From a virus, in IMG/VR virus record IMGVR_UViG_3300040807_000922, positions 1-37,492 of that record: 37,492 bases of DNA; one strand, given 5' to 3'. The notes under the pieces were generated by a model. That model ran no database searches. It was given only the letters and a program-made list of their open reading frames with translations, and was not told the DNA's origin. Positions 8,175 to 25,781 of the stretch are shown here, piece by piece. Within the stretch, counting starts at the first letter, position 1, and every line of letters starts with the position of its first letter. A program made the translations under genes and the position numbers.

Positions 8175-8498
8175 ATGGCAACAGGAATTTTAGGAACACC
8201 AGCAGACCTTGCAGCAACTACTAATACTACATTGTATACTGTACCAGCAGAAACGTTTAGTATAGTATCTGTAAACTTAACAAACAGAAGTGTTCAATCT
8301 AGAAGCATAAGGATTGCTCTAGCAGTAGCGGATTCACCAAGTCTTGCAGAATATGTAGAATATGATGTAGAACTTGTAGCTAACGGTACACTAGAAAGAT
8401 CTGGCATAGTTCTAGACGCAGGGAAGAAAGTTGTAGTCTATGCAGATAGTACTGATGTAAGTGCTATGGTGTATGGAATTGAAACAGCAACAGCGTAA
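8175..8498 (+). CDS. Small beta-rich virion protein, hypothetical
   Basis: This 107-residue protein has no signal peptide or membrane segment. It alternates beta-forming stretches with Ser/Thr/Asn-rich loops, as expected of a small beta-sandwich. GGAG at 8163-8166 lies eight bases before ATG and decides the start. It sits between the giant fibre and the first S74 fibre in the same operon, so a fibre accessory or connector role is likely. I do not recognise a named family. Confidence 0.6.
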   Translation: MATGILGTPADLAATTNTTLYTVPAETFSIVSVNLTNRSVQSRSIRIALAVADSPSLAEYVEYDVELVANGTLERSGIVLDAGKKVVVYADSTDVSAMVYGIETATA

Positions 8499-8507
8499 GG
8501 AGTTGAA

Positions 8508-9380: not shown

Positions 9381-10402
9381 TGGCCAATTTAAGAGATACA
9401 GAAACAGATTCGCTTACGGTAGGAGGCTCAGCAGTATGGACAGCATCGCAAAGTAATAATAGTTCACCTATTACTGCTGACAAAATTGCTGGTTATAATA
9501 TCGAATTCCTTGACGTATGGGGAAGAACAAAGTATCTCGGACTGTTTGGAACATATAGTAATACAACCTTCTATCCAATGATCATTAGCGGACTATCACC
9601 GGACAGTGTTACAGAAGTTGATCTTCGTAGAACAAGTATTCACCAAGACGGTAGCGGTCGTGGCGCATTATTTGGAACTTTCCGTTGGAGAGGTAACGGA
9701 TATAATTTCTGGGAAGTAAAAGAAAATTGGGGATCGGGTTGGGGATCTAACAGTAGATGGCCTTTCTTGGTAGATTTTCAGGTTGCTCAAAATAGCAACG
9801 ATGCTGTAATATGGGTACGCGGCGGCCAAGGCTATTACTACAAATTTAGTAATTGGAGTAAGTTTGACGATACAAGTGCTACAGTTCCAAAAAACTTTGA
9901 TGGTAGCACTGTTACAAGTACTACGAGCACTAGTGCAATTCCTTATTATGCAATGTATCTACAACAAAATGTCTGCTCTCAAGGCTACAGTTTAGGACAA
10001 AGCACTTTCAGACATAGCACAGTGTATACTGTAAACGCTATTAACACTAGTTCTGATAGACGTTTTAAAGAAGACATACAAGACTTAGATTGGGGTAAAG
10101 ATTTTATTTTAAATTTATCTCCTAAAAGTTATACATTATTACCACAGCCTCATGCTTCTGATGAAATGAAAGAACAAACAGATAAAAGACGTCAACATGG
10201 ATTAGTAGCACAAGATGTCAAAGCAACAATGGATAAAGTAGGTCTTACCGACAAAGACTTTAGTGGTTTAAACAACAAAGAAGATTATTGGGGATTAGAA
10301 TACGATCAATTTATTCCTATCTGCACAAAAGTAATACAAGAACAGAATACAGAATTAGATGATATCGATGCAAGAATTAAAAAACTCGAGGAGATGGTGT
10401 AA
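9380..10402 (+). CDS. Receptor-binding-type fibre tip with S74 domain, tandem copy 1
   Basis: The N-terminal 220 residues form a beta-rich domain shared with the next two genes: an SAVWT start, an N-I-E-F-L-D core, a TFYPM segment and a WEVKENWGSGW segment. A C-terminal S74 chaperone domain follows, with Ser225 and Lys230 in dyad spacing, HGLVAQDVK, and a closing coiled coil. The first and last bases overlap the neighbouring genes (TAATG junctions), so the tandem set is translationally coupled. The protein is too short to be a full fibre and is probably a tip or side-fibre module. The S74 call is firm; the receptor role is inferred. Confidence 0.82.
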   Translation: MANLRDTETDSLTVGGSAVWTASQSNNSSPITADKIAGYNIEFLDVWGRTKYLGLFGTYSNTTFYPMIISGLSPDSVTEVDLRRTSIHQDGSGRGALFGTFRWRGNGYNFWEVKENWGSGWGSNSRWPFLVDFQVAQNSNDAVIWVRGGQGYYYKFSNWSKFDDTSATVPKNFDGSTVTSTTSTSAIPYYAMYLQQNVCSQGYSLGQSTFRHSTVYTVNAINTSSDRRFKEDIQDLDWGKDFILNLSPKSYTLLPQPHASDEMKEQTDKRRQHGLVAQDVKATMDKVGLTDKDFSGLNNKEDYWGLEYDQFIPICTKVIQEQNTELDDIDARIKKLEEMV

Positions 10403-11475
10403 TGGCTACATCTTTGCAAGCAACTAATGCAACTAATGCTTTTGTAAATGGTAGCGGAGTCTGGGCATCTACAAATGATGGTAGTACAGGCACAGGCGGC
10501 GGCAGCGGTCCAAATGTAGGTAGCATTTGGAATTACGGCATTGATTATTTTGATATCCGTACTAGAGTTACAACACTTGATGTAACCAGCGGTAACAGAA
10601 CAACATTTTATCCTATGAACTTTGCTGGTTCTACATGGGGTACAGGTATTGCAGAATTGTATATTCGTAAAAGTTATGTACACCAAGGCGGAGGCGGCGC
10701 TGGCGCTGTGTACGGGCGTTTGAGATATCGTTCTACAGCTTGGGGACACCACGGTACTTTCTGGGAAATGGAAGATAACTGGGGCGGCGGCTTTAATAAC
10801 CCTTACATTGCAAATGCTGACGATGCATCAACTCGTGTTAACATGACTATTTGGTTACGTGGCGAAACAACTTACTTTTATAATTTTAATTCACCTGATT
10901 CTTTTACTGATACAGATGTTTTAGATGTAAAACCAAGACCAGAATCAAATAACGCTAGTGCAACAGTTTCTAGTACAACAACAATAAGTATTCCTGGCAA
11001 CGCTAGATACTATCAAAAACATATCGTTGGTAAGTCAGGTTATAACTTAGGAGATCCTAGTTTTAGATGGGCAGCAGTATATGCATCAGCAGAAAATGCT
11101 AGTTCTGATGCTAGATTTAAAGAAGATATAGGTGACAGTTACGGATTAGATTTCTTAATGAAATTAAAACCAAGAACATATATAAGAAAAGCTAGCTACG
11201 TTTTAGAAGATCCAACAGAATGGGACGAAGATAAACAATACCCAGATGGCGATCGTCGAACTGTAGGATTTATTGCCCAAGAAGTAGAAGATGTCCTTGA
11301 CGAAATGGGTATAAGTGTAAACGACTTTGCCGGATTTGACAATGATACTCCGGAGCATTTAAGTTTGATGTATGCACAATTTGTTCCTATACTAGTTAAG
11401 AGTTTACAAGAGAAAAAAGCAAAACGTTTAGCACTAGAAGAAAGAGTAAAAAAATTGGAGGGGCTAAATGGCTAA
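10402..11475 (+). CDS. Receptor-binding-type fibre tip with S74 domain, tandem copy 2
   Basis: This paralogue of both neighbours shares the GVW start, the TFYPM segment, the FWEMEDNWGGG segment and the end domain. The N-terminal region has a Gly/Ser-rich insert near residues 25-40. The S74 domain has Ser235 and Lys240 in dyad spacing and VGFIAQEVEDVL, ending in a lysine-rich coiled coil. The middle region (residues about 95-215) differs most from the other copies, as expected where receptor specificity would vary. It overlaps the next gene by eight bases. Confidence 0.82.
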   Translation: MATSLQATNATNAFVNGSGVWASTNDGSTGTGGGSGPNVGSIWNYGIDYFDIRTRVTTLDVTSGNRTTFYPMNFAGSTWGTGIAELYIRKSYVHQGGGGAGAVYGRLRYRSTAWGHHGTFWEMEDNWGGGFNNPYIANADDASTRVNMTIWLRGETTYFYNFNSPDSFTDTDVLDVKPRPESNNASATVSSTTTISIPGNARYYQKHIVGKSGYNLGDPSFRWAAVYASAENASSDARFKEDIGDSYGLDFLMKLKPRTYIRKASYVLEDPTEWDEDKQYPDGDRRTVGFIAQEVEDVLDEMGISVNDFAGFDNDTPEHLSLMYAQFVPILVKSLQEKKAKRLALEERVKKLEGLNG

Positions 11476-12559
11476 TTTAACTGCAACTACAGCTACATCA
11501 TTTACTATTAACGGTGGTACTGTTTGGACTAGTGGTAATAGTAGACCTAGTAGCGGAACTACAATTTGGGACGGAACTTCTGAAGGACTAGATGCTAGAC
11601 AGCTAAATGGTTATGACATTCGTTACTTTGCAGTAAGGAATAATACCGAGTCGTTTACTGTCGGCGGCAACAGTAGTACATTTTATCCAATTGTTTTCCG
11701 TGGACAAAGCTGGGGAGGCAACTCAAACGGACGTACTGTTTGGATGCACCTTAATAGAACTCCAAACCAAGACGGAACTAACTACGGTAGCTTGAACGCA
11801 CGTATTAGATATCGTTCAACAAACTGGGGTTATCATAGAAACTTTTGGGAAATTGACGAAAACTGGGGAAGCGGTAATTTTTATCCATTTATTGCGAGAG
11901 CAGTAAGCTCTCCACACCGTGTTTATACAGCAGTTTGGCTACGTGGCGGAAATCTAAGTTATACTGTTGCATATTCTGACCCAGAGTTCGTTTTTGACGG
12001 AAGAGCTGTAGATGCAAAAGGCGGCCCAGGTGTTGCGGGCGATGATAGTACATGGAGCTGGATTTCACGTAATAATACCACACAGATCTTTTCACAGACT
12101 GCTGTACAAGTACCTAGCAATGCTTGGTATCTACAAACTCATTTATGTTCTAGGGGGTATAACCTAGGTGATGCTAGCTTCCGTTGGTCTAATTGTTATG
12201 TTAACTCTAAAGATATCAGCTCTGATGTAAAACTTAAAAGTAACTTTAGTGTAAGTTTTGGTCCTGAGTTTCTTGACAAACTAACGCCAAGAAGTTATAC
12301 TAGAAATGATTTACCAAACGAAAAAATTAAAAAGAGACACCACGGATTTATTGCACAAGAAGTACAGGAAGTGCTTAAAGAACTAGGAATAGCAGAAGAT
12401 GATTTTGCAGGATTTGACGGAAGAAATCCAGATCACTTAGCTCTAAGTTATGATCAATTTTTACCCGCAATTATTAATACAATAAAAGACGAAGAAGAAA
12501 AAACAAACGAACTTAAAAGTCGACTTAGAAAATTGGAGGAAAAGTATGGCCTTGTATAG
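11468..12559 (+). CDS. Receptor-binding-type fibre tip with S74 domain, tandem copy 3
   Basis: This is the third paralogue of the array, with TVWTSG near the start, STFYPIVFRG, and FWEIDENWGSG. Its S74 domain has Ser252 and Lys257 in dyad spacing and HGFIAQEVQEVL, then a charged coiled coil. A GGAGG site inside the end of copy 2 serves the start. The gene overlaps the small gene that follows by 14 bases. All three copies keep the Ser-Lys pair, so all are likely to mature by self-cleavage. Confidence 0.82.
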   Translation: MANLTATTATSFTINGGTVWTSGNSRPSSGTTIWDGTSEGLDARQLNGYDIRYFAVRNNTESFTVGGNSSTFYPIVFRGQSWGGNSNGRTVWMHLNRTPNQDGTNYGSLNARIRYRSTNWGYHRNFWEIDENWGSGNFYPFIARAVSSPHRVYTAVWLRGGNLSYTVAYSDPEFVFDGRAVDAKGGPGVAGDDSTWSWISRNNTTQIFSQTAVQVPSNAWYLQTHLCSRGYNLGDASFRWSNCYVNSKDISSDVKLKSNFSVSFGPEFLDKLTPRSYTRNDLPNEKIKKRHHGFIAQEVQEVLKELGIAEDDFAGFDGRNPDHLALSYDQFLPAIINTIKDEEEKTNELKSRLRKLEEKYGLV

Positions 12560-12842
12560 ATTAGAAAAAGACGATAGAGGTGCTGTAAATATTAAAAAAG
12601 ATGGAGCTCGTATCGGATTATATACAAACATTCATGACTTTGGTATTACTGAGCACGGCTGGGGCGGAATAATTGGCAGTCCCACCCAAGTAGCATTTGC
12701 TGTAGTTTATGATGTGCTACAAAATAAAGATAACGCACTTGCAAGATATAGAAAATTTGAAGAAGCCATTTCTGAAGCAGCACCATTTATTCTGGAACTA
12801 AGTACTAGTGATATACAGGGTATTTTAAATACTCCTAGCTAA
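12546..12842 (+). CDS. Small hypothetical protein, DUF6166-like
   Basis: This 98-residue soluble protein contains HGWGGIIGSPTQVAFAVV followed by a helical stretch ending in a Phe-Glu-Glu segment. That layout (a Gly-rich turn, then a helix of small residues, then a second helix) resembles the DUF6166 family as I remember it; I could not verify this. GGAGG lies at the end of the preceding fibre gene, which it overlaps. Its place at the junction of the fibre array and the enzyme island gives no clear function. Confidence 0.5.
   Translation: MALYRLEKDDRGAVNIKKDGARIGLYTNIHDFGITEHGWGGIIGSPTQVAFAVVYDVLQNKDNALARYRKFEEAISEAAPFILELSTSDIQGILNTPS
12825..12832 (+). promoter_or_regulatory. Possible late promoter box before the enzyme island
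   Basis: TTAAATAC shares the TAAATAC core of the other late boxes. It lies 27 bases before the ATG at 12860, with an AAAGGA ribosome site between them. It falls inside the end of the upstream coding region, and in AT-rich DNA it may be chance. Confidence 0.3.
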
Positions 12843-12859
12843 CTTACAAAAGGATTACT

Positions 12860-13549
12860 ATGGCAGTAACAATTGGTTGGTTTCTTGACGAATCCACGCC
12901 TTGGAATGAATTGGTTTGGCTTCAACCAGAACCTCTGAATCTATATAAAGGACATAAAGCACAGTATGCAAGATGTCCTTCTCTTACTCATTATTGTAGA
13001 AATACATATGTTCTTAGATCAGGGATAGATTTTGAGCTTCGTTTCGATAAAGAACAAAAGAAAATTAAGTACGTAGACGGATCAGTTGAACCATGGCTTG
13101 TAAAAGAGATGCTTCATCAGTTTCATCCAAACGAATGGCGCTCACCAGAACATCCTATTTTTCAAATACAAACACAACAAGGTTTTATAGCAGACGAACC
13201 AGTTTGGGTAGAAGTATCACAGCCATTCGGTGACGAAGCACCTAAACTTCCTGGAACACTATTACCAGGAACGCTAGATATTTATAGCTGGCAAAGAATG
13301 TTAAGTTATGGCGTAGAATGGAGTAATATTAATGAGCATTGGAAAATAAAAAGAGGAGATCCTCTAATGCACATACGCTTTAGATCTACAGATCCGTCAG
13401 ATGAATTCAAACTAAAGCGTATAGACTATACAGAAGAGCTACAAAAAGACGTTAACAAATGTCAAGGTGTAAAGTTTGCTTTAAGAAATTATAGTTGGCG
13501 ATTAACAGCACTGAACAGAAAATTTAGACCTAGGAGATACATTAAATGA
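12860..13549 (+). CDS. Hypothetical protein, first gene of the plus-strand enzyme operon
   Basis: This 229-residue protein is rich in Trp, Arg and Tyr and has no signal peptide or membrane segment. It has a CPSLTHYCRNTYVLRS stretch near residue 40 and a basic C-terminus. I do not recognise the family. It overlaps the next gene by four bases (ATGA) and heads the operon of oxygenase-fold and halogenase genes. That suggests it belongs to the same pathway, perhaps in substrate recognition; this is inference only. Confidence 0.55.
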   Translation: MAVTIGWFLDESTPWNELVWLQPEPLNLYKGHKAQYARCPSLTHYCRNTYVLRSGIDFELRFDKEQKKIKYVDGSVEPWLVKEMLHQFHPNEWRSPEHPIFQIQTQQGFIADEPVWVEVSQPFGDEAPKLPGTLLPGTLDIYSWQRMLSYGVEWSNINEHWKIKRGDPLMHIRFRSTDPSDEFKLKRIDYTEELQKDVNKCQGVKFALRNYSWRLTALNRKFRPRRYIK

Positions 13550-14298
13550 GTTTAGAACAAGCAGCAATTTATCCTATTAATATAAGTTACGGATCATTGT
13601 TAGACAAATGGGAAGATAGTACTTTTATTAAATTTCAAGATATAATTGAAAATACTAGTCCAGATACACATGCAAATTTACAAAAGCCACAGAGCGAACC
13701 AGCTGTTACTGATGATGGTTTACTACTGCATGATGTAGTAGAATTAAAAGAATTAAAAGAAATTTTTGAAAAAGAATGTCTAAAGATACATGATGAAACT
13801 TTCCCAGCAATGAAAGGAAGATTTCAAATTTATGAAACTGTTGGCAAAGGAATTGTTGTAAATCATAATACAACAATACAACAAACGTTGAGTAATCACC
13901 CGTGGAATTACACAGGGTTGTTTGTTGTTAGAGTGCCTCCGAATCTTAAACCAGGTGAAGGAGATGTAGTTTTCCTTGATCCAAAGCCTGTAAGTGATGT
14001 AAACGATCAGTTTGGCTTAACAGTAGAAAAAGGTAATATAGCAGTATTTCCGAGTTGGCTAAAATATAGATTCCGCCCATTAACATTAGAACAAGGCACA
14101 TATGACACTGTAATGTATATTATGATGCATACAATGATTGTGCATAAAACACTAGATAGTCATGTTGCAGAAGAGCGAGAAAAATGGATGGATGAAATGG
14201 GTACACCTAACGAAGTGCAATCTTTAGATGTTGATGATGTAGATCAGTTAGGACCTTCTAACACTAATCCAGATGAAACAGATATCGGTTTAATGTAA
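13546..14298 (+). CDS. Degenerate 2OG-Fe(II) oxygenase-like protein
   Basis: The middle of the protein follows the fold pattern of the neighbouring oxygenases: a strand pair with YTGLFVVRVPP, then GEGDVVFLDPKP, then a GNIAVFPSWL strand. The residue where the others have the distal iron-binding His is Tyr174 (FPSWLKYRF). The expected HxH before the first strand is replaced by a looser NHNTT...SNHPW stretch, and the usual 2-oxoglutarate Arg after the distal His is not evident. It may therefore be inactive or use a different site. A 70-residue acidic C-terminal tail is extra. It is coupled to both neighbours. An inactive partner of the next oxygenase is one possibility. Confidence 0.55.
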   Translation: MSLEQAAIYPINISYGSLLDKWEDSTFIKFQDIIENTSPDTHANLQKPQSEPAVTDDGLLLHDVVELKELKEIFEKECLKIHDETFPAMKGRFQIYETVGKGIVVNHNTTIQQTLSNHPWNYTGLFVVRVPPNLKPGEGDVVFLDPKPVSDVNDQFGLTVEKGNIAVFPSWLKYRFRPLTLEQGTYDTVMYIMMHTMIVHKTLDSHVAEEREKWMDEMGTPNEVQSLDVDDVDQLGPSNTNPDETDIGLM

Positions 14299-14918
14299 TG
14301 AAGGATGAAGTTTTTCGCTTGTTCTCTACTCCAGTTTTTAAAACAGAGGCTGATCAAAGCCTCTGTGATAAAACTCTTAAAGAAATTTTAAAATTAAAAA
14401 AAGAAGGCTTAGGGTACGACAATAAAGTAAATTGGTTTAGCGAAGACAATCTACATAAAATGGCAGAGTTTAATGAAATAACAGAATTTATTAATCACTG
14501 CTTAAACAATGTTTTAGACTTTATTACATTAAAAAGAAATAAAGTATACATTACCTGTATGTGGGCAAATGTAAACAAAGTTGGCTACATGCATCCTTCA
14601 CATTCTCATGCTAATAGTTTGTTTAGCGGTATAATATATCTCCAATCACCACCAGGAAGTGGATCTACATATTTTTGTGATCCACGACCTGCCGCAACAA
14701 CATTTAACTTTGAGGTAGAAGACCCAGTAGCAGAATGGTATAATGTTAACAATTGGGCATACCCGCCCAAGGTAGGAAATGTTTTAATTTTTCCTAGTTG
14801 GTTACAACACGGTGTTGATCATAGCGAAATTGCTAGCGACGAAGAACGAGTAACGCTAGCATTTAATGCATTTATAAGTGCAGATGTTAATTATATCACA
14901 AGGAAAATTTCTATATGA
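14298..14918 (+). CDS. Putative 2OG-Fe(II) oxygenase (TIGR02466-like)
   Basis: This is a double-stranded beta-helix dioxygenase-like protein. The first motif is HPSHSHANSLFSGIIYL, with His102 and His104. A GSTYFCDPR strand follows, then IFPSWLQHGV with the distal His171, and Arg184 as the probable 2-oxoglutarate contact. This matches the small phage and marine bacterial family in which an N-terminal LFSTPVF-type strand is typical. Such enzymes hydroxylate protein or small-molecule substrates using Fe(II), O2 and 2-oxoglutarate; the substrate here is unknown. The start overlaps the previous stop by one base and the stop overlaps the halogenase start by four. Confidence 0.8.
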   Translation: MKDEVFRLFSTPVFKTEADQSLCDKTLKEILKLKKEGLGYDNKVNWFSEDNLHKMAEFNEITEFINHCLNNVLDFITLKRNKVYITCMWANVNKVGYMHPSHSHANSLFSGIIYLQSPPGSGSTYFCDPRPAATTFNFEVEDPVAEWYNVNNWAYPPKVGNVLIFPSWLQHGVDHSEIASDEERVTLAFNAFISADVNYITRKISI

Positions 14919-16423
14919 TTAAGAAATTTACTGTATTGGGCGGAGGTACTGCTGGTTGGATTGTTGCTAACATGATACGAGCATTTACTTCGTCTGATAC
15001 AGAAATTACGATTTTAGAATCTCCAAAAATTAAAACAGTTGGCGTAGGAGAAGGTACTAGTACAGTTTTCTGGGCATTAATCAATCGATGGTGTCCTTGG
15101 TTTAGTGAAGAAGAATTTATTAGAGAAACTAATGGTACATTTAAACTAGGTACTAAATTTACCGACTGGACATATAAAGGTAGTGTTTACACTACACCTA
15201 ACGACAATTTAGGGCATTTACCACATTCAAATGAATACTGGCCTCCTAGCTTTGATGCTATGCGGGCTTGGGCTATTGCAAACAAAAAAAGTACTAATCC
15301 TACTATACAAGAACTTCTTATAATGAACGATAAAAGTCCTTATATAGATAATAAAAGTGCAGGTCATAGTTATCATTTTCAGGCAGACAAGTGTATAGAA
15401 TATTTTAATAAAAAAGCAAAAGAAGCACGTATAAATGTTGTAAAAGGTACAATAGTAGATAGTGTTATTAATGATAATGATATAATCGAAAAACTTATAT
15501 TAGATGACGGTAGAGAAGTTACAAGTGATTTCTTTTTTGACTGTACAGGATTTCATAGATTCTTACCTAAGAAAATGGGTGTAGAATGGAATAGTTGGAG
15601 AAAGTGGATTATTGTAGATAGAGCAATTAATTTTCCTATACCTATTTCTCCAGACAGTGAAGAAAGAATCCCAGCTTACACACTATCACATGCATTAGAT
15701 AATGGTTGGCTGTGGCGTATACCTACATATACTCGATATGGCAGTGGATATATTTACTCTAGTGATTTTATCAGCACCGAAAAGGCATTTGAAAAATTAG
15801 AAACAGAATTTGGTGCTACAGGCTATGAACTTGAAGTTAAATTTGAATCAGGAGCATTAAATGAAGGATGGCGCGGGAACGTATTCTTCGGCGGGCTATG
15901 TGCAGGTTTTATAGAACCAATGGAAGCAACTAGTTTGCATAGTACTATTGTTAATATAATGGTATGGTTTAAAGATTACTATAAGCCTTGGTTAGATCTA
16001 AAAGATAAATCTATAGCAAAAAGATATAACACAACATATTGGCAACCTTACTGGAACAGTGTAAGAGATTGGATACTATTACATTACATGGGCGGAAGGA
16101 CTGATAGCGAATATTGGAAAGCTATTACAAATATGGAATTACCAGATAGTTTACAAAGTAAATTAGACATTTGGAAAACTAGGGTACCTCGTATAGATGA
16201 TTATAACTTTGCTAGCGAAGTTTGGCAACACAGTTTAACTGTTGGAGTAACAACAGGATTAGGTATAACAACACCAGAGATGGCGCAAAGAGAATTAGAT
16301 TACTACGATTTGAATGATGCAGGAAAAGAATTGTGGAATGAATTTAATAACATTGCTACAGGTGTTTATTCTCGAAACAGAGATCACAAAGAAGTTTTAG
16401 ATGAAATACGAGCAAAAAGCTGA
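14915..16423 (+). CDS. Flavin-dependent tryptophan halogenase-like protein 1
   Basis: The FAD-binding motif GGGTAGW is at residues 9-15. The VGVGEGT segment (42-48) and Lys77 match the position of the catalytic Lys79 of PrnA and RebH. The family signature WxWxIP is present as WLWRIP (265-270). EPMEATS contains Glu337, equivalent to PrnA Glu346, but the following residue is Ala338 where the reference enzymes have Ser. The length of 502 is near the usual 510-540. These enzymes chlorinate or brominate indoles using reduced FAD supplied by a separate reductase; no reductase gene is visible here. The substrate could be free tryptophan, another indole or a peptide. The overlapping gene order suggests cotranslation with the oxygenase before it. 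Confidence 0.85.
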   Translation: MIKKFTVLGGGTAGWIVANMIRAFTSSDTEITILESPKIKTVGVGEGTSTVFWALINRWCPWFSEEEFIRETNGTFKLGTKFTDWTYKGSVYTTPNDNLGHLPHSNEYWPPSFDAMRAWAIANKKSTNPTIQELLIMNDKSPYIDNKSAGHSYHFQADKCIEYFNKKAKEARINVVKGTIVDSVINDNDIIEKLILDDGREVTSDFFFDCTGFHRFLPKKMGVEWNSWRKWIIVDRAINFPIPISPDSEERIPAYTLSHALDNGWLWRIPTYTRYGSGYIYSSDFISTEKAFEKLETEFGATGYELEVKFESGALNEGWRGNVFFGGLCAGFIEPMEATSLHSTIVNIMVWFKDYYKPWLDLKDKSIAKRYNTTYWQPYWNSVRDWILLHYMGGRTDSEYWKAITNMELPDSLQSKLDIWKTRVPRIDDYNFASEVWQHSLTVGVTTGLGITTPEMAQRELDYYDLNDAGKELWNEFNNIATGVYSRNRDHKEVLDEIRAKS

Positions 16424-17834
16424 AGAATTTATAATTGCAGGCGGCGGCACTGCTGGCTGGATAACAGCAGCAATGATTGCAAGTATGTTCAGCAATTGTA
16501 AAATTACTTTAATTGAAAACAGTAAGATAGGAACAATCGGTGTTGGAGAAAGCACTACTCCTGCTATATTAGATTTTTTATCAATGTGCAATATTGATAT
16601 AAGAGATTTTATTAAGCATACAGAAAGCACAATTAAGGTCGGAATAAATTTTGAAAACTGGACTGCTGACAAGAGTAGTTATCTTCATAGTTTTGAGCTA
16701 GTAAGAAACGATCAACAAGGAAGTATATTTGGGTATGATTATTTACATAAATTTTTAAAAGATGATCATCCATATAACTACTTTGCAGAAAAAAATGTAT
16801 TGCCTATTTCTGATACAGGTGAATTAATCGGATCACATGCATTACACATTAATGCTATTAAGTTTGTAGAATATTTAAAAAGTTTCTTAGGAAATAAAGT
16901 TAATGTAATCGATGATAAAATTATATCGGTTAATAATCTACAAAATAAAATAACAGATATACAATTAGAATCAGGTGTGATTTTATCTGCAGACATTTTC
17001 TTTGATTGCACCGGATTTAAAAGAGTATTACACTCAGAATTAGGAAGTGAATGGAAAAGTTGTAAAGATATTTTGCCTGTAGATAGTGCTATTCCTTGTC
17101 CATTCGAATGGAATAATCCTATGAATACTACTCATTCTACTGCATTAGACGAAGGATGGGTATGGCAAGTTCCTTTACAAACTAGAATGGGATCAGGTTA
17201 TGTGTACAGCTCAGAATTTGCAAAAGATCCCGAAAAAACTTTTGTAGAATTTATTAAAAACAAATATGGAAAAATTATATCTCCTGATCGTATAATAAAA
17301 TTTGATAGTGGATATGTAACTAATCCTTGGAAAGGTAATGTTATTTGCGTAGGGCTAAGTAGTGGATTTGTTGAACCATTAGAAAGTACAAGTATCCATA
17401 TGATTTATCATCAAGTACTTAGTTTTATACATGCCTATGACGGTTTATGTACAGATAATATTTCCTATATGTATAATAAAAATATGCAAGATATGTATGA
17501 CGATACAGTTGCATTTATCAAGTTACATTATATAGGAAAACAAGGCAAAAATGATTTTTGGAATTATATGGCGGAACCTAACTGCGAAAAATTAAACACT
17601 TTGTTAGATTTATGGAAACATCATCTTCCTACTACAGATCATATTGGTCAAAATAAAAATGAAACACCTGGGTATAGATTATTTGCAATTATCGCATGGT
17701 TACAAGTAATGCAAGGTATGAAACTTATTCCTAAAGATAATATAAAAAGATTTATACACTATAACGAAATTTCAGAAACGGATTGTTTTAGAAATAATTT
17801 AATTACACAAGATATGTTAATTAAAAATTTATAA
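16401..17834 (+). CDS. Flavin-dependent tryptophan halogenase-like protein 2
   Basis: This is a divergent second copy of the preceding halogenase. It has GGGTAGW at 14-20, VGVGEST at 47-53, Lys79 as the catalytic lysine candidate, WVWQVP at 253-258 (Val for Ile in the WxWxIP signature), and EPLESTS with Glu328 and Ser329, the full canonical pair. It starts 23 bases inside the end of copy 1. At its 3' end it meets the minus operon tail to tail with a six-base overlap and no visible terminator. Keeping two divergent copies suggests different substrates or positions rather than simple duplication. Confidence 0.85.
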   Translation: MKYEQKAEEFIIAGGGTAGWITAAMIASMFSNCKITLIENSKIGTIGVGESTTPAILDFLSMCNIDIRDFIKHTESTIKVGINFENWTADKSSYLHSFELVRNDQQGSIFGYDYLHKFLKDDHPYNYFAEKNVLPISDTGELIGSHALHINAIKFVEYLKSFLGNKVNVIDDKIISVNNLQNKITDIQLESGVILSADIFFDCTGFKRVLHSELGSEWKSCKDILPVDSAIPCPFEWNNPMNTTHSTALDEGWVWQVPLQTRMGSGYVYSSEFAKDPEKTFVEFIKNKYGKIISPDRIIKFDSGYVTNPWKGNVICVGLSSGFVEPLESTSIHMIYHQVLSFIHAYDGLCTDNISYMYNKNMQDMYDDTVAFIKLHYIGKQGKNDFWNYMAEPNCEKLNTLLDLWKHHLPTTDHIGQNKNETPGYRLFAIIAWLQVMQGMKLIPKDNIKRFIHYNEISETDCFRNNLITQDMLIKNL

Positions 17835-18395
17835 AGATACAAAATAATCAGCAGCAATTACATATCTAGGATTAGAAGTAGTAATAGAATTATTACTATG
17901 TTCCATACTACTAGGAAATATAGTCCACGATAAATCTTTTGGTGCAATCTCAATAGGTTCTTTTTCAAAACTTGTAGGATTTGATGTTTTAAAAATAGTT
18001 CCTATTTCCTTACTTCTTAAATAGAATACTCCGCTTAATAGTGCTGGATAGTGCTCATGCCAACTTATTTGTTGTTGCAAAGAATTATCCGTTTTAAAAA
18101 ACCAAGCTCTGGTATCTGTAAATTTATATTGAAAGTTATAACTTTGTAAATATATTTCGCAACATTTTAAAAAAGTATTTCTAAGTTTTTGAAATACTTC
18201 AGGTGCTTCTTTAGCAAACAAAAATGTTTTACTTTGATATTTTAATGCACCGTCTTTACTCAAACAATCTGGATGATTAAGTATTAAATCGTCTATTGTT
18301 GATATCATAGTATCTGTGTCTGACGTAGTTATTACTTCAGACACATCTATTGATAAAATTTTAGTAGGAAAAACGTTATATTCTTCTACATTCAT
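17829..18395 (-). CDS. Putative 2OG-Fe(II) oxygenase, last gene of minus operon
   Basis: The motifs follow the family order: HEHYPALLSGVFYL with His113 and His115, GTIFKTSNP, then IFPSSMEHSN with the distal His166, and Arg177 before the last strand. It starts with an ATGA overlap on the methyltransferase stop, so the two are coupled. The sequence is more divergent than the other oxygenases of the island, but the metal and Arg positions remain. The substrate is unknown. Confidence 0.7.
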   Translation of the reverse strand: MNVEEYNVFPTKILSIDVSEVITTSDTDTMISTIDDLILNHPDCLSKDGALKYQSKTFLFAKEAPEVFQKLRNTFLKCCEIYLQSYNFQYKFTDTRAWFFKTDNSLQQQISWHEHYPALLSGVFYLRSKEIGTIFKTSNPTSFEKEPIEIAPKDLSWTIFPSSMEHSNNSITTSNPRYVIAADYFVSL

Positions 18396-19306
18396 TGTGG
18401 AATATCAATGCCAACATTAAATGCTCCTAGGGATTCGTCTAACTTAAACAATAGTCTAAGCTCAGTCATTTCATCCATAAGTGTCCATTTGCCAAATCTC
18501 AAAAACGAATTACCCCAATGAGTATGATCTCTGTCAGGTTTATAAATCTCAAATCTTTCAGAAGCATTTTTAATATAAGGTATACACCATAAACTATCTA
18601 TTCTTTTTTGTTCTTTAAATTGATATTTTTCTTTAAATTCTCTGCTCGGATCAGGATAATCTAGAAACTTAAATGGTCCTACTTCGATCCAATCGCGCCC
18701 GTTATCGTGTATGTAATCTTCAACAATAGCTTGATCTCCTTGCATCATTCTTCCAAAAGTAGGAGAAATACTATCAATATACTTAATAGATTCAACATCA
18801 TTGCTATTAAAAAATTTAAATTTGAAACCAAATTCTTCTGGTATGATCTTGCCTTCTGGTTTTAACCATTTTTTAACTTCATTAATAGTATGAAGACACA
18901 TTTCTTCTAATAGCATAGGGCCAAACATTTCATGGATAATAACATCTACTTGTTCAGGAAGTTCTGCATCCCAACTTGGAGCCTGTATAATTTCTAAGTT
19001 ATCTAATTTTTCATCCTTCTTAAGCTCTTTAAGCACATCAACTGCAACCGGATTTACTTCTAGTGCATAAACTTTTTTTGCTCCTGCTCTACAAGCCATC
19101 AGTGATAACATTCCTAAGCCGGCACCGACATCAAGTACTACCTTATCTTTTACATTATGTTTTATTTGATAATCATAAAAATCGTTTCTAGCTTTATCTG
19201 TCATCATAACACGGTATGTTGCAGGGTTAGGATAAAACGATCTAATTTGAAATGTTCTGTATTCTCGTAATCTTTGAGTTTCTTGTTCTTGATTAATATC
19301 TGTCAT
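18392..19306 (-). CDS. Protein arginine methyltransferase-like enzyme
   Basis: This is a SAM-dependent methyltransferase with the hallmarks of the arginine methyltransferase (PRMT) family. A pre-motif helix has MMTDKARNDFYDYQI (34-48), like the family MLxDxxRTxxYxxAI. Motif I is VLDVGAGLG (57-65), with Glu83 as the ribose-binding acid. The double-E loop is HEMFGPMLLEEM, with Glu126 and Glu135 nine apart as in PRMT1. A THW loop is present at 262-264. At 304 residues the C-terminal barrel is at the short end for the family. The expected product is methylarginine in protein. The substrate could be a virion protein, a host protein or a small guanidino compound. The start follows the upstream stop directly with no gap. 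It is embedded among oxygenase genes. Confidence 0.75.
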   Translation of the reverse strand: MTDINQEQETQRLREYRTFQIRSFYPNPATYRVMMTDKARNDFYDYQIKHNVKDKVVLDVGAGLGMLSLMACRAGAKKVYALEVNPVAVDVLKELKKDEKLDNLEIIQAPSWDAELPEQVDVIIHEMFGPMLLEEMCLHTINEVKKWLKPEGKIIPEEFGFKFKFFNSNDVESIKYIDSISPTFGRMMQGDQAIVEDYIHDNGRDWIEVGPFKFLDYPDPSREFKEKYQFKEQKRIDSLWCIPYIKNASERFEIYKPDRDHTHWGNSFLRFGKWTLMDEMTELRLLFKLDESLGAFNVGIDIPQ

Positions 19307-19906
19307 TTAAATGTCCATGTTAAAAGCAATACATCTTCTTTCACCATCGCAAAAGAACGGATACACTGTATGTAATATATAGCTAGGGAATAAGTACAAG
19401 TCACCAACTTCTGGCAGTATAACCCTTGGGCCAAAATTATTAAGACTAGGTCTATGATAGTTCCCCATTATAAACTGTATGCATCCATCTAAAGATGGAT
19501 CATCCTTGTCGTAAAAAGTTTTACTGATACCTTCCGGCACTTTTAAATAAACTATTCCGCTTAGTAAACTTTCGTGACTGTGTGCAGGATTATAATCTCC
19601 TGCAAACTGACTCACAACCCATGCTTCCCTCATTTTAACATCGCCTGGTAGTAAATTTTTAAAGTCGAAATGTTCATTGAGATAAGTTGCTGCAATTGTT
19701 CCTAAATCAATTTCGTTAGGAAAATCTATTTTAACTTCACATCCTTTTTTCATTTCTCCTACAAGATTGTGACTCCAATCTTCATTAATTGACAATGCTT
19801 CCTGAGATTTTTCAAGTAAACAGTTTAGTTGATCGCTAGAGAGTTTAGCTTTAACAAAGTCTAACTTCCATAATGTACCAGGTTGTACACTTTTAAATCC
19901 TTGCAT
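19307..19906 (-). CDS. Putative 2OG-Fe(II) oxygenase (TIGR02466-like)
   Basis: It has HSHESLLSGIVYLKVP with His109 and His111, TFYDKDDP, YLFPSYILHTVYP with His179, and Arg190/Arg191 before CIAFNM. All the expected metal and 2-oxoglutarate positions are present, so it should be active. Its start shares one base with the preceding stop (TAATG) and its stop abuts the methyltransferase start. The substrate is unknown. Confidence 0.8.
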   Translation of the reverse strand: MQGFKSVQPGTLWKLDFVKAKLSSDQLNCLLEKSQEALSINEDWSHNLVGEMKKGCEVKIDFPNEIDLGTIAATYLNEHFDFKNLLPGDVKMREAWVVSQFAGDYNPAHSHESLLSGIVYLKVPEGISKTFYDKDDPSLDGCIQFIMGNYHRPSLNNFGPRVILPEVGDLYLFPSYILHTVYPFFCDGERRCIAFNMDI

Positions 19907-20466
19907 TATTCAATAGGTCTCCATGTAGAATTTAGTGTAAATCTAAACTGTTTAGCTTCTGCAGGAGCATGCGTAGCTTTATGCGGAACATCGCTATCAA
20001 ATATTACAACTCTGCCTGGTCTAAAACTACAAGCATACTCAACTTCTGTCATTTGTTCATTACTAAAAAGTGTAGGAGCATCCCAGTTGATGTCCCAATG
20101 AACATTTAAATAATAAAGCATACTACGTTCACCGGGCTTTGTACTATCACTGTGATATCTTAGTCTATCAATAGGAGTTCCTAAATTTACCCAAGATCTA
20201 TGTAATGCATAACCGTGAAGTTCTTTACGCAACGGTTCGGCTTCGGGCAATTGCATTAATCCAAAATGTCCAAAGTGTTCGTTATCCCATGCACTCTTTA
20301 TTATGAAAGAAGATTCTTGATCGGTAATCAATGTATCATATGCTGCCCAAAAATTAAACGGAATTTTTCTCATTAGAGAAAACATATTACATCTATCTCT
20401 ATATGTAAACAATTCGTCAAACACTTTGATTTTTTTATTATTAGATAAAGTAATTTCTTTCATCAT
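19906..20466 (-). CDS. Putative 2OG-Fe(II) oxygenase, HxD type
   Basis: This enzyme uses the classic H-x-D form: RYHSDSTKPGERSMLYYLN with His105 and Asp107, then PTLFSN, then IFDSDVPHKATH with distal His162 (or His166), and Arg175. The long N-terminal region is unlike the HxH-type oxygenases beside it and closer to prolyl-4-hydroxylase-like enzymes. Two ATG codons open the gene. The first overlaps the upstream stop as ATGA and is preferred. The substrate is unknown. Confidence 0.78.
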   Translation of the reverse strand: MMKEITLSNNKKIKVFDELFTYRDRCNMFSLMRKIPFNFWAAYDTLITDQESSFIIKSAWDNEHFGHFGLMQLPEAEPLRKELHGYALHRSWVNLGTPIDRLRYHSDSTKPGERSMLYYLNVHWDINWDAPTLFSNEQMTEVEYACSFRPGRVVIFDSDVPHKATHAPAEAKQFRFTLNSTWRPIE

Positions 20467-21122
20467 TGTTCCTCATAATGAGACATAATACTATTTTTGC
20501 CTAAATTTTTAATATTAAAAGTATATGCAATATTAATCCTTGCACCGTGATTTATATTATTAGCAGTAGTACCATGTATAGTATTACTTTTAAAAACTAC
20601 ACACTGTCCTTCTCTAGGACTTATTGCAAATTCAGAACTATTAGCGTTAGACATAGATTTTGGATCAGGTTCTAAACTATTAAGTTGCATATTAGGATGT
20701 AAAAAGTATAAGTCACCGCTACCTCTTGGCATAGACAAATAATAAACTACACTAAACATACTATTAGAATGTATATGAGGAGTATGTGTAGCTACTTTTC
20801 CTTTGCTGTAATTTGCCCAGCAGTCAGCAATATACAAATCGTCATACTGAACGTTATACTCAGACACTTTTGCATAAGAATATACACAATCTTTAATAAA
20901 AGAATTTAAACGTGGCGGCAAAAACTTATGATATCCTGTTTCTGTTTGTACAAAGTTTTTTAAACTATCGTCTTCAGCGTCAATAAATTGCTGCGATTGT
21001 TCTTCATAGATTTTTTTAAGTTGTTGTTCGATACTGTCGTGATCTCTTATATCAGGTCTTTCGTACAGCCCTACGTTAGTTGGAAATAAGTTAAAAAAGT
21101 CTTTTTCGAACATTAGATCCAC
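20463..21122 (-). CDS. Putative 2OG-Fe(II) oxygenase (TIGR02466-like)
   Basis: It has the LFPTNVGLY start typical of the family, then THTPHIHSNSMFSVVYYL with His116 and His118, GDLYFLHP, CVVFKSNTIHGTT with His183, and Arg195 before INIAYTF. It is complete in all expected positions. It overlaps the upstream gene by ten bases and the downstream gene by four. The start could be Met1 or Met4. Confidence 0.8.
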   Translation of the reverse strand: MDLMFEKDFFNLFPTNVGLYERPDIRDHDSIEQQLKKIYEEQSQQFIDAEDDSLKNFVQTETGYHKFLPPRLNSFIKDCVYSYAKVSEYNVQYDDLYIADCWANYSKGKVATHTPHIHSNSMFSVVYYLSMPRGSGDLYFLHPNMQLNSLEPDPKSMSNANSSEFAISPREGQCVVFKSNTIHGTTANNINHGARINIAYTFNIKNLGKNSIMSHYEEQ

Positions 21123-21715
21123 TCTTTTTCAAAATCTTTTTCATACTCTTCTCGACCCGGAACCATCATAGCATCCATACTAATAATAATTTTTTTACGC
21201 TCTCCTTTTGTAGGAAATGTATAGTGTGTCATCCAACTTGGCCATATAAGAAAATCACCAGCTTCGACTTTAACTTTTTGACACCAAGGGTTAAACAGTG
21301 TAAAGGAACTAGCAGTCGCAGGATTTGGAACAACAAATTCACCGCCTTCAGATTCTTGCACTACTAACATACAGGAAATGTCATTTCCTGGGTGTGCATG
21401 CATTTCTTGGAAACCGCCTTCGTTATATGTTACAGTCCAAGAATTTCTTACTTCAACTGGATACTTTACATTAAAAACTTTTTGGCAATATTCTTCTAGC
21501 TGACCTTGTATCCATTCTCTTACAGGTAACCAGTCAGGAAACTGCCAATTATGCGGCCACACTGTATACTTAGGTTGATGTCCGTGTCGTGTTGTATTGT
21601 ATTGACCGTGTGCAAATTTTTCATTTGCTTCTAAAATAATATTTTTTACTTTTTCTAAATTTCCTGGATATTGAGATTTTGCAATTACTGTTGGCCAAGG
21701 ATCTGTCATTTCCAT
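21113..21715 (-). CDS. Putative 2OG-Fe(II) oxygenase
   Basis: The motif order is FQEMHAHPGNDISCMLVV (His106, His108), GGEFVVPNP, FLIWPSWMTHYTFP (His164), and Arg173 before KIIISM. It opens with a DPWPTVIAKSQYPG segment of the family type. The start could be Met1 or Met3, which lie within the overlap with the previous gene. The substrate is unknown. Confidence 0.78.
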   Translation of the reverse strand: MEMTDPWPTVIAKSQYPGNLEKVKNIILEANEKFAHGQYNTTRHGHQPKYTVWPHNWQFPDWLPVREWIQGQLEEYCQKVFNVKYPVEVRNSWTVTYNEGGFQEMHAHPGNDISCMLVVQESEGGEFVVPNPATASSFTLFNPWCQKVKVEAGDFLIWPSWMTHYTFPTKGERKKIIISMDAMMVPGREEYEKDFEKEWI

Positions 21716-22269
21716 ATCGATGTTTCCTCTACGTTAATGTCAAAGTTTACAACACATCTATGATTATTTTTTGGAATACCTGCTGCATGATATATGTCAC
21801 CATTAAAAACAACTAGTCTTCCTTTTTTAGGAGAAACGCTTTCAGTAACATTTCCTTTTTTGTCAAAAAATACAGTATCACCATCGGCATCGTTTACATA
21901 GTATAATAATACTTTATGCCATTTTTGCATGTCAATGTGAGGATCGTAGTGCGATTTTGATGTGTTTTGCGGAGTAGTTAGATAAATTCTTCCTGCCATA
22001 ACATCGTGTAGTATATCACCTGAATTTTTACAGTAAATGTCGATAATTTGGTAAAAATTAGGTAGGTGTTTGCTTGTTTCGAATTGCGTTTTAAGCAGAT
22101 GTACAAAGCTAACTGGCATGTTGCCCTTTTCGTCTATAGCTGTTTTTTCGTACTTACAATGTAAATCAATAACAGGTTTTACTCTCTGATTTCCGCTCTT
22201 ACCTAGTATTAACAGTTCGTAAAAGTCTTGTAAATACTGAGGTATAGCATTATCGATAACTTGAATCAT
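21706..22269 (-). CDS. Putative 2OG-Fe(II) oxygenase, prolyl-4-hydroxylase-like, first gene of minus operon
   Basis: The core reads SHYDPHIDMQKWHKVLLYYV, which offers two H-x-D pairs (His107/Asp109 or His111/Asp113). It continues with GDTVFFD, VVFNGDIYHAAGIP with distal His161, and Arg171 before VVNFDI. The layout is that of P4H-like hydroxylases. The start is fixed by AGGAG at 22276-22280 on the minus strand, and an early-type promoter lies just upstream. It leads a six-gene chain of short overlaps running to 17829. Confidence 0.8.
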   Translation of the reverse strand: MIQVIDNAIPQYLQDFYELLILGKSGNQRVKPVIDLHCKYEKTAIDEKGNMPVSFVHLLKTQFETSKHLPNFYQIIDIYCKNSGDILHDVMAGRIYLTTPQNTSKSHYDPHIDMQKWHKVLLYYVNDADGDTVFFDKKGNVTESVSPKKGRLVVFNGDIYHAAGIPKNNHRCVVNFDINVEETSIWK

Positions 22270-22288
22270 TTATTACTCCTTAATATTA

Positions 22289-22318
22289 GTTATCGCAGAT
22301 TAGAGGAGTAAGTGTCAA
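22289..22318 (-). promoter_or_regulatory. Early sigma-70-type promoter for the minus oxygenase operon
   Basis: On the minus strand TTGACA (22318-22313) is followed after 18 bases by GATAAC (22294-22289), a four-of-six match to TATAAT. Transcription would begin about 15-20 bases before the AGGAG of the first oxygenase gene. No late box was seen in this direction, so the operon is predicted to be transcribed by unmodified host polymerase. Confidence 0.5.
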
Positions 22319-22324
22319 ACTCTG

Positions 22325-22332
22325 AATAAATA
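22325..22332 (+). promoter_or_regulatory. Late promoter box before the 22356 fibre gene
   Basis: AATAAATA matches the late box core. A GGAG site at 22346-22349 follows, then GTG at 22356. The box points away from the early promoter of the minus operon, so the 86-base gap carries divergent early and late control. Confidence 0.55.
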
Positions 22333-22355
22333 TAGTATAAGTATTGGAGTTACAT

Positions 22356-23666
22356 GTGTCAAGTCAAGCACCTATTGTAGATAGAATAAGAATCATACCT
22401 AGACCTACAGATTTTCTAGATAGAAACGTAGGGTCTAGCGGCGAAGTTTTTTATTCAAAAGAATCAGGAAGTTTAAGGGTTTATAGCGGAAAACTAGCAG
22501 GTGGCTATGAACTAGCAAAAAGCGATTTATCCAATGTGAGCAACGAATTATTTGCAGCAAAAGTTTCTAGCTCAGGTAGTAGTGGCTTAGAATCTATATA
22601 CACAGCAGATGAGACTCTTGATTGGGTAGAAGGATCTTACAACTTCGGTAACAATATTATCAAATATGCTAATGCTATACAAGCAGAAAGTGAATTAGCA
22701 AATTACGATCCTGCAACATACCACGGCATGACAATGCATGTTCATGAAACAGGAGCATTATACTATGCACACTCCGGAGAATGGCGCAAGTTACTTACTG
22801 ATACTACGTTTAATGATGCAGTAGGAGCAGGTTATGTTGATCCTTTAGCATCTGTTGCATACAGTGGATCTTACAACGATTTATCAGATTTACCTGATAT
22901 CGCCGGCGGCGGAGCTAGTGTTGATGTTGGACTGACACCACCTACAGATCCTACAGCAGGCAATATATGGTTCGACTTAAACACTGGTAAAATTTATGTT
23001 TATGTTGATGATGGTGATACACAACAATGGGTGCAACCAGTTGCAGCAATTGGATCTACGTTTAGTGGAGATTACAACGACTTAGATAATAAACCTAATT
23101 TACCTACATTTGATGGCAGTCTTGTAAGCACAGACAGTGTAACATTTGATACAGTTACAGCATCAAGTTTTGTAAATAACGGAGTAGGTAATGCTGGTCT
23201 AACTAGCGCAAGTACTATAGACCTAACTGCACCAGATGGCGTTAATGTTAGTGCAGCTCTAAATGTTGCTGGTATTTCTACATTAGCTTCTACAAGAGAA
23301 AAAATTATACAAGCAACTGTAGATACCGTTACTAACACACTTACAGTTGATTATGAAGAAGGTGCAATTTATTTTGTTACAGTACCTCCTAGTGCAGATT
23401 TTACGTTAGACATATCAAACGTTCCTACAGAATTTTGGCACAGTATAACAATGGCTGTAGTAATTTCTCAAGGCGGTACAGCATATATGCCTACGGCAGT
23501 AACAGTAAACAGTACAGCTCAAAGTAGTTTATTTTACCAAGGCGGTCCGCCACCGCCTTCGGGCACAGCAAATGGAATAGATGTATATAGTTTAGTACTA
23601 CTAAAAGCTGACGTAGCAGGCAATACATTCAATTGTTTAATATCTTCAACATCGTATGATAACTAA
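22356..23666 (+). CDS. Fibre-like virion structural protein
   Basis: The preferred start is GTG at 22356, with GGAG six bases upstream. A TTG 12 bases earlier is in frame but lies on the ribosome site itself. The protein has two copies of an S-G-x-Y-N-D-L-x-x-x-P shaft motif (SGSYNDLSDLP and SGDYNDLDNKP) and an IWFDLNTGKIYVYVDDG segment, both seen in marine phage fibres and baseplate-attached proteins. The C-terminal 120 residues form a separate beta-rich domain with a Gly/Pro-rich loop. No catalytic motif is visible. It is followed 11 bases later by a second fibre-like gene. Confidence 0.7.
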   Translation: MSSQAPIVDRIRIIPRPTDFLDRNVGSSGEVFYSKESGSLRVYSGKLAGGYELAKSDLSNVSNELFAAKVSSSGSSGLESIYTADETLDWVEGSYNFGNNIIKYANAIQAESELANYDPATYHGMTMHVHETGALYYAHSGEWRKLLTDTTFNDAVGAGYVDPLASVAYSGSYNDLSDLPDIAGGGASVDVGLTPPTDPTAGNIWFDLNTGKIYVYVDDGDTQQWVQPVAAIGSTFSGDYNDLDNKPNLPTFDGSLVSTDSVTFDTVTASSFVNNGVGNAGLTSASTIDLTAPDGVNVSAALNVAGISTLASTREKIIQATVDTVTNTLTVDYEEGAIYFVTVPPSADFTLDISNVPTEFWHSITMAVVISQGGTAYMPTAVTVNSTAQSSLFYQGGPPPPSGTANGIDVYSLVLLKADVAGNTFNCLISSTSYDN

Positions 23667-25162: not shown

Positions 25163-25426
25163 TACGTCTTTTACAATCTTGTTTAGTTTAACTCGCAGCC
25201 GAACAAGATTGTCAATATTTTCTTTTAACATGTCAGGCCTAATATATCCATTATATTCTGTGCTGTGTCCATCATTTATCAATCTTACTTGTTCTTGAAA
25301 ATCGTCGATTAACTTTTGTACCACTTTTACAACTTTAGGATTAGTTATTTTATCACATGCAGCTTGATACTGTTTTAAATCTTTATTATATTTTTCTATG
25401 TTATTAACAGATAATCTTTTATACAT
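25157..25426 (-). CDS. Small helical hypothetical protein
   Basis: This 89-residue protein is rich in Lys, Asn and Asp and predicted to be mostly alpha-helical. I see no motif I can name. It overlaps the upstream cupin gene by eight bases and is the last gene of the minus operon that starts with gp14 or the Nudix gene. Confidence 0.5.
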   Translation of the reverse strand: MYKRLSVNNIEKYNKDLKQYQAACDKITNPKVVKVVQKLIDDFQEQVRLINDGHSTEYNGYIRPDMLKENIDNLVRLRVKLNKIVKDVS

Positions 25427-25781
25427 TGCTCATTCCGATATTATTTGAGGGTATTAGTTTATAAACAGTATCTTCTACAAAATCGCCTACTTCAGTGATA
25501 GATCCGGGCGACACGCATTCAATACTGTACGGCATTAATTTATTAACTGTAAATGTTGCACCTTCTTTAATTTCTTTTTCATAAAACGATCCATCGTTTG
25601 TATCTATCCATCTTATAATAAACGTGCCTTCATTAATAAAAAGAGATTTAGTTTTATCTTTTTGAAATGTCATATCTGTTTTAAAAGGTTTATCAAAGAC
25701 AACTATTTTACCATAATAATTTTCTGTTTTAGTCCAAAATACTTCGTAACCAAACCCAGTTTTAACTACATTATCTGACAT
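25419..25781 (-). CDS. Small cupin-like protein
   Basis: The sequence is a single beta-barrel of cupin type. VFWTKTENYYGKIVVF at the start resembles the WxKTxxYCGKIL segment of mannose-6-phosphate isomerase-like cupins. TFIIRWID and a Pro-Tyr-Ser-Ile strand follow, ending in TEVGDFVEDTVYKL. The metal-binding histidines of active cupins are not evident, so it may bind a sugar or a protein rather than catalyse. It overlaps the Nudix gene by 11 bases. Confidence 0.6.
   Translation of the reverse strand: MSDNVVKTGFGYEVFWTKTENYYGKIVVFDKPFKTDMTFQKDKTKSLFINEGTFIIRWIDTNDGSFYEKEIKEGATFTVNKLMPYSIECVSPGSITEVGDFVEDTVYKLIPSNNIGMSNV

Follow-up and report, generated by a model that had tools for sequence, protein, structure and literature searches.

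Halogenase, oxygenase and methyltransferase-like genes beside the tail fibres of a jumbo-phage relative: a candidate fibre-modification module

Arrays of halogenase and 2-oxoglutarate (2OG) oxygenase genes have been known in phages since the early cyanophage genomes, without a substrate. The cluster of S-SSM6a was interpreted as a halogenated secondary-metabolite pathway (Iyer et al. 2021, PMC7824862). VirX1 (PDB 6QGM) is the second halogenase of the Syn10 array, as shown by an end-to-end match, and no native substrate for it is given in the literature searched. QhpG, a relative of the halogenases, oxidises Trp inside a protein (PMC7876137). Here we describe a block of modification genes in the viral record IMGVR_UViG_3300040807_000922, a single linear contig of 37,492 bases that was analysed over its whole length (the window). 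The block (13546-22269) comprises two halogenases (H1, H2), eight genes of the 2OG-oxygenase fold (O1, O2, O5 and O7 to O11) and one gene resembling protein arginine methyltransferases (PRMTs). Its co-occurrence with a matching fibre family in phages that are otherwise distant makes chemical decoration of host-recognition fibres its most likely role; sequence comparison makes it fairly probable that the block is a post-translational modification module dedicated to the adjacent fibre heads.

The tail sheath of the window (1089 amino acids) found its top matches in the jumbo phages Phosso, Atu_ph07 and the PA5oct group (43-48% identity), and the phage is a myovirus related by this protein to phages of the PA5oct/Phosso/Atu_ph07 type. 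These relatives rule out an origin among cyanophages (Kyanoviridae), the group that the first-pass annotation had used to frame the block. No near-DNA match to the window was found among phage records.

Co-inheritance of fibre heads and modification genes

The comparison set consisted of related phages recovered by scans with the tail sheath, the PRMT and the halogenases. Scans of IMG/VR covered 2.9 million viral contigs and rely on short conserved peptides; the fibre region of G006, G012 and G022 is covered only in part in the comparison table. Two other phage lineages, G032 (six contigs of one population) and L129, carry much of the gene set in the same order, and the island is therefore beyond chance. 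The eleven open reading frames (ORFs) abut or overlap (spacing -23 to 0 nucleotides) and have fibre genes on both flanks, which agrees with the first-pass description of their coordinates and packing. The genes concerned are listed here, with percentages giving amino acid identity.

9380..10402, plus strand: S74 fibre b, proposed substrate; head (approximately residues 1-205) inherited together with the enzymes; 44% to the G032 orthologue
10402..11475, plus strand: S74 fibre c, proposed substrate; head 46% to G032, 39% to L129
11468..12559, plus strand: S74 fibre d, proposed substrate; Peptidase_S74 chaperone domain 252-307 (PF13884, E 5e-9); head 36% to G032
12546..12842, plus strand: DUF6166 protein (PF19663, E 8e-7); among the compared phages in the window, G032 and L129 only
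12860..13549, plus strand: protein of 229 amino acids (229-aa protein), phrog_17480/phrog_7084 type; 62%/57% to G032/L129; best conserved module member
13546..14298, plus strand: O1, degenerate 2OG-oxygenase fold; phrog_81 6e-8; hhalign profile-profile E 1.7e-6 over 58 columns
14298..14918, plus strand: O2, PF13759/TIGR02466 2OG-Fe(II) oxygenase; PF13759 above cut-off; HxH/H/R kept
14915..16423, plus strand: H1, flavin-dependent halogenase; PF04820 E 3e-89; 57% to G032
16401..17834, plus strand: H2, flavin-dependent halogenase; PF04820 E 4e-96; 55%/51% to G032/L129
17829..18395, minus strand: O5, divergent PF13759-type oxygenase; sub-threshold PF13759; HxH/H/R kept
18392..19306, minus strand: PRMT-like protein arginine N-methyltransferase, 304 amino acids; CARM1/PRMT1 match, E 1.3e-22, residues 10-157
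19307..19906, minus strand: O7, PF13759 oxygenase; above cut-off; HxH/H/R kept; 48% to G032
19906..20466, minus strand: O8, P4H/FlmC-like 2OG oxygenase; phrog_274 3e-18; NF052475 7e-14; 48% to G032
20463..21122, minus strand: O9, PF13759 oxygenase, core member; above cut-off; HxH/H/R kept; 44%/40% to G032/L129
21113..21715, minus strand: O10, PF13759 oxygenase; above cut-off; HxH/H/R kept
21706..22269, minus strand: O11, PF13640/phrog_274 2OG oxygenase; PF13640, HxD/H/R kept
22334..22362, minus strand: sigma70-like promoter candidate of the minus-strand enzyme operon; TTGACA-17-TATACT, 11/12, consensus match only

Closest to the window in backbone are G001/G002 (gp15 85%, head-tail adaptor 92%, sheath 82%). 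Their slot holds different fibre proteins together with a single halogenase and two or more oxygenases, all with identities of 25-33% or lower, and neither PRMT, O1, 229-aa protein, DUF6166 nor b/c/d fibre heads were found in them. In contrast, the most distant backbones, those of G032 and L129 (gp15 40-41%), keep fibre heads of the b/c/d type (36-46%) together with DUF6166 (34-43%), the 229-aa protein (57-62%), O1 (36-43%), H1 (33-57%), H2 (51-55%), O9 (40-44%) and the PRMT (49-55%), in almost the same order and in the slot between the fibres and NUDIX-gp15. The head of fibre b has no counterpart in G001/2, G010 or G013. Identities of fibres and enzymes thus follow one pattern, which is at odds with that of the backbone. 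When the fibre heads were used to scan the IMG/VR contigs, the sole matches were contigs of the G032 population and L129, and the PRMT scans returned the same set and nothing else. Heads and enzymes therefore appear to move as one module.

This module, as delimited by sequence comparison, takes in 12546-13549 as well, adding two co-inherited genes (DUF6166 and the 229-aa protein). All three lineages have seven non-fibre genes in common (DUF6166, 229-aa, O1, H1, H2, O9 and PRMT) and the others vary; L129 represents a minimal core (fibre-DUF6166-229aa-O1-H1-H2-O9 / PRMT). Because only these seven are kept throughout, calling the block a full pathway, as had been done initially, was an overstatement. 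The density of its enzymes is not distinctive either: the same slot in G010/G011 contains four halogenases along with no fewer than seven oxygenase-type genes, one of which encodes a JmjC_2 protein resembling the histidyl hydroxylase NO66, and other viral contigs reach up to five halogenases with nine oxygenases. G010:C1:14000-30000 (L097/L098) and L099, with four halogenases, two DUF6445 genes, JmjC_2 and PF13759, are denser than the window.

A plus-strand run with little or no spacing (2018-17834) comprises large fibre proteins, S74 fibres a-d, DUF6166, 229-aa, O1, O2, H1 and H2. From the S74 fibre genes to H2 the genes lie head to tail with ends that overlap or almost touch; from these gene-end overlaps, O1-O2-H1-H2 are translationally coupled to the fibre genes. 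No terminator-like site was found on the plus strand between 12000 and 17834. Convergent to this run, the minus-strand run extends from 22269 to 17829 (O11, O10, O9, O8, O7, PRMT-like, O5). The sole sizeable gap, 74 nucleotides (22270-22343), lies between this operon and a fibre gene that runs divergently, and the promoter candidate upstream of O11 falls inside and slightly past it; the remaining gaps of the island region do not exceed 17 nucleotides.

These gaps bear on the tailoring of a ribosomally synthesised and post-translationally modified peptide (RiPP) with its precursor elsewhere in the genome. RiPP pathways include halogenases, 2OG oxygenases and methyltransferases, and small ORFs adjoin syn9 gp41-gp45. 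However, the island gaps are too small for a precursor gene, and neither exporter nor protease was found nearby, which leaves RiPP tailoring very unlikely.

The layout also bears on a modification of host proteins (e.g., ribosomal proteins, RNA polymerase or receptors) for takeover or exclusion of rival phages, in which case the site beside the fibres would be a recombination hot spot only. Such a role would fit the minus-strand operon's own promoter candidate, the hypervariability of the enzyme slot within the phage lineage and the hydroxylation of ribosomal proteins by NO66/JmjC_2 relatives. It can hardly account for heads and enzymes that follow one another and not the backbone, or for O1-O2-H1-H2 being translationally coupled to the fibre genes, and we consider it rather improbable.

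Predicted enzymes and companion proteins

Profile searches of the island genes upheld the family assignments made in the first-pass annotation. Both halogenases match PF04820 over their full length (H1 300 bits, H2 323 bits; curated cut-off 21). In an alignment of 16 phage sequences H1 keeps GGGTAG, the catalytic Lys77 (Lys79 in PrnA), WLWRIP and Glu337; H2 keeps the flavin adenine dinucleotide (FAD) motif, the catalytic Lys and the Glu, and its WxWxIP-type motif reads WVWQVP. The closest solved structures include 9luq, 6nsd and 6y1w, VirX1 being more distant. H2 matches 9luq best, and its NETPGYRL was aligned, weakly, to YYHGLPPYSY of 6nsd, the C-terminal Trp-binding segment of the PrnA/RebH/PyrH type; this weak alignment hints that H2 may not be an enzyme for free Trp. 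Its match to LodB is confined to the FAD region, and H2 remains far under the family cut-offs.

The PRMT-like protein keeps motif I (VLDVGAG), Glu83, the double-E pair Glu126/Glu135 and His263-Trp264 of the THW loop, all invariant in the window, G032 and L129. The YFxxY motif is mostly lost: YFQFY of CARM1 aligns to IRSFY, and the final Tyr alone is retained. Confidence in the AlphaFold model was modest (pLDDT 59); the top 50 Foldseek matches that it gave in the PDB were all PRMTs, covering both domains (E about 1e-13, TM about 0.35). The protein is thus a predicted member of the arginine methyltransferase family, and methylation of peptidyl-Arg is its putative activity. No relative was found in 50,697 phage records, and the genome-collection scan gave nothing beyond two distant bacterial methyltransferase matches. 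A PADLOC match to 'mad2' was rejected, as it covers the S-adenosylmethionine (SAM)-binding stretch only.

A halogenated, hydroxylated and methylated small molecule or surface-sugar decoration made during infection (an antibiotic, a signal or a capsule change) would be another product of the same enzymes. Natural-product pathways are the best-known setting of halogenases, and the similar S-SSM6a cluster has been interpreted in this way (PMC7824862). Some viral arrays have carbamoyltransferase matches among their neighbours; this survey of PHROG families (tail, neck, carbamoyltransferase) had no matched control and is therefore not used as a statistic. A PRMT, the targets of which are Arg residues of proteins or peptides, is nevertheless hard to reconcile with a small-molecule substrate. 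Moreover, neither synthase, carrier protein, sugar nor carbamoyl gene was found in the window (scans of its proteins, from an incomplete genome, gave no match to a carbamoyltransferase or sugar kinase/phosphatase), a specific fibre-head family is co-inherited, and the S-SSM6a cluster itself lies directly behind a phrog_9851 tail fibre, a family also found among the window's own fibres. Taking both sides together, we regard a small-molecule product as rather improbable.

As had been noted from the letters alone, seven of the eight oxygenase-fold genes have intact metal and Arg positions and one, O1, is degenerate. O8 (HSD..H..R) and O11 (HID..H..R) carry residues of the P4H type; the PF13640 score of O11 (32.9) is over the cut-off of 27, that of O8 (22.8) under it. 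O1 was detectable solely with phrog_81 and profile-profile comparison. HxH, distal His and Arg are all lost in the window, G032 and L129 copies, yet the protein is kept at 35-45% identity across the three lineages despite these lost catalytic positions; its sequence suggests that it is probably a conserved pseudo-enzyme acting as a non-catalytic partner. The C-terminal end carries a conserved DIG(L/R)(M/F), alike in the three lineages.

O8, O11 and many cyanophage genes match phrog_274, the label of which, 'DNA endonuclease V', is attached to 2OG-oxygenase genes and inherited by cyanophage records. This label could point to an action on DNA, RNA or nucleotides (hypermodification or repair), in line with an earlier view of cyanophage 2OG genes, which in syn9 were tied to repair (PMC2984593). 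However, the label looks like a mis-annotation, the domains are PF13759 and PF13640 rather than AlkB or TET, no nucleotide-modification gene adjoins the island, and a PRMT has no such role. Nucleic-acid modification is accordingly a highly unlikely function.

The 229-aa protein gave an AlphaFold model (pLDDT 76) with a weak dUTPase-like beta fold (Foldseek E 1.4e-3), which supports no claim on function. Members of its family, which has the motif CPA...PGxFDIxxWxRP, occur alongside phage halogenases or pairs of 2OG genes; homologues were seen in syn9 (gp43, phrog_7084), L103, L104, L150, L161, L171, L183, L190, L191 and L196.

Proposed action on fibre heads and surroundings of the block

Under the preferred reading, fibre modification, the enzymes would act on freshly synthesised fibre heads, either ahead of trimerisation or while it proceeds. 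H1 and H2 would halogenate exposed aromatic residues, the seven intact oxygenases would hydroxylate the heads and the PRMT would methylate Arg; O1, and perhaps the 229-aa protein, may serve as substrate-binding or scaffold partners. Altered side chains could affect how the fibre binds its receptor, how stable it is or how host factors recognise it, and we propose that an enzyme set would therefore have to match its fibre and be swapped together with it. By analogy, PRMTs, the NO66-like JmjC_2 protein of the G010 slot, LodB, with which H2 has the FAD region in common, and QhpG may be seen as protein-directed precedents. Modification of virion fibres had already been put forward in the first-pass annotation; it gains from the coupling to fibre genes, the exchange of heads with enzymes, the exclusive co-occurrence of heads and PRMT and the fibre adjacency in isolates, while the Pro, Lys and Asn sites named there were guesses.

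Several observations speak against fibre modification. Co-inheritance rests on few events, since the exact set is found in three lineages only, and adjacency by itself makes co-transfer of neighbours likely, whatever their function. In vitro, VirX1 accepts many small aromatic compounds as substrates for halogenation (PMC8407142). In S-RIM44, S-B64 and S-H38 the halogenases are not fibre-adjacent at the places examined. Finally, the number of halogenases does not always go along with the Trp content of the fibres. The fibre heads of the window contain 3.4-5.0% Trp (fibre d head: 5.0% Trp, 7.3% Arg), compared with a background median of 1.5% and a 95th percentile of 3.4%, both for whole proteins; this enrichment is suggestive but was set aside as evidence because halogenase-rich G010 (four halogenases, 0.9% Trp) breaks the trend.

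A defined fibre-head family that moves with a defined enzyme set provides a concrete candidate substrate. The wider proposal, that phages exchange cassettes of a fibre with its own modification kit, that receptor-binding heads carry several types of non-canonical side chain and that phage halogenases including VirX1 are protein halogenases, is evenly balanced in our judgement. If true, halogenated, hydroxylated and methylated receptor-binding proteins would constitute a new layer of phage-host specificity, with the recognition of hosts resting on a chemistry that enzymes have expanded and not on sequence alone. Such phages would also be a source of natural protein halogenases, and clusters at present assigned to auxiliary or secondary metabolism would gain a new reading.

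Three further genes flank the block:

8508..9380, plus strand: S74-type fibre a; PHROG tail fibre matches; 43-45% to G001/G013, which share fibre a
22344..23666, plus strand: far-side fibre protein; phrog_9729 2e-16
25419..25781, minus strand: cysteine-dioxygenase-like cupin; phrog_7851 1e-13; linked by iterative hidden Markov model search to L116:15849-16250

The module probably reaches as far as the cupin, a possible outer member. This gene adjoins NUDIX and gp15 in many relatives, and a homologue lies inside the S-SSM6a halogenase cluster. Further along, a virion protein that carries a CBM5/12 carbohydrate-binding module (27743-29023) has a divergent start over the head-tail adaptor gene. 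A perfect sigma70 consensus (TTGACA-17-TATAAT, 29763-29791) stands ahead of a dNMP-kinase-like gene at 29809, and a TAAATAC/T motif precedes several virion genes; the sigma70-type sites and this motif are possibly two promoter classes. The T4 late promoter TATAAATA was rejected, with two matches, fewer than expected by chance.

Comparison with known phage arrays

Viral contigs provided 52 halogenase loci with a length of 9 kb or more. A 2OG gene lies within 5 kb in 32 of these loci, more than one halogenase is present in 21, and ten have a protein of the 229-aa type nearby. L161, L171, L201, L152 and L183 are viral contigs with four to five halogenases and eight to nine 2OG genes each, some with a protein of the 229-aa type. 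Isolates with a halogenase beside fibre genes are syn9, Syn10, P-TIM40, P-RSM6, S-SRM01, DSL-LC01 (here behind collagen-like proteins) and S-SSM6a; in P-SSM2 it lies beside fibre-assembly genes and in HTVC008M among neck and terminase genes. As these isolates were picked by search rank and not randomly, the adjacency is a pattern and not a statistic. In S-SRM01 (L215, 6001-7458) the tryptophan halogenase gene is flanked by a tail-fibre gene on one side and an adhesin-tip gene on the other.

The arrays of syn9, Syn10, P-TIM40 and P-RSM6 resemble the window in their order (fibre genes, then two halogenases, then a 2OG run) and in a phrog_7084 protein akin to the 229-aa protein. These cyanomyoviruses, however, belong to another phage family, no PRMT was found in them, their halogenases are about 21-30% identical to H1, and their fibre heads showed no relation to those of the window in the searches run. 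VirX1 shares with H1 and H2 the PF04820 fold, the catalytic motifs and the position in an equivalent fibre-side array, whereas H1 and H2 score higher against 9luq, 6nsd and 6y1w than against VirX1.

The clusters of S-SSM6a and S-SSM7 (PMC7824862) contain a halogenase, 2OG oxygenases, a cysteine-dioxygenase-like cupin and a HemK-like methyltransferase, and the position of the S-SSM6a cluster behind a phrog_9851 fibre is as in the window; they differ in their carbamoyltransferases and sugar genes, of which the window has none. QhpG and LodB have a halogenase-like FAD fold and set a precedent for altering protein-bound Trp (PMC7876137), but they are monooxygenases. For the PRMT-like protein, the eukaryotic-type CARM1 and PRMT1 provide the comparison: the SAM-binding fold, the double-E loop and the THW loop are alike, a similar two-domain shape is predicted by the model of modest confidence, and the window protein differs in being smaller (304 amino acids), in having mostly lost YFxxY and in being phage-encoded. 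In the literature searched, which was covered in part, we found no earlier statement that such arrays modify fibres. Phage arrays of halogenases and 2OG oxygenases are already known; new here are a different phage group, the added PRMT and the tie to a specific fibre-head family.

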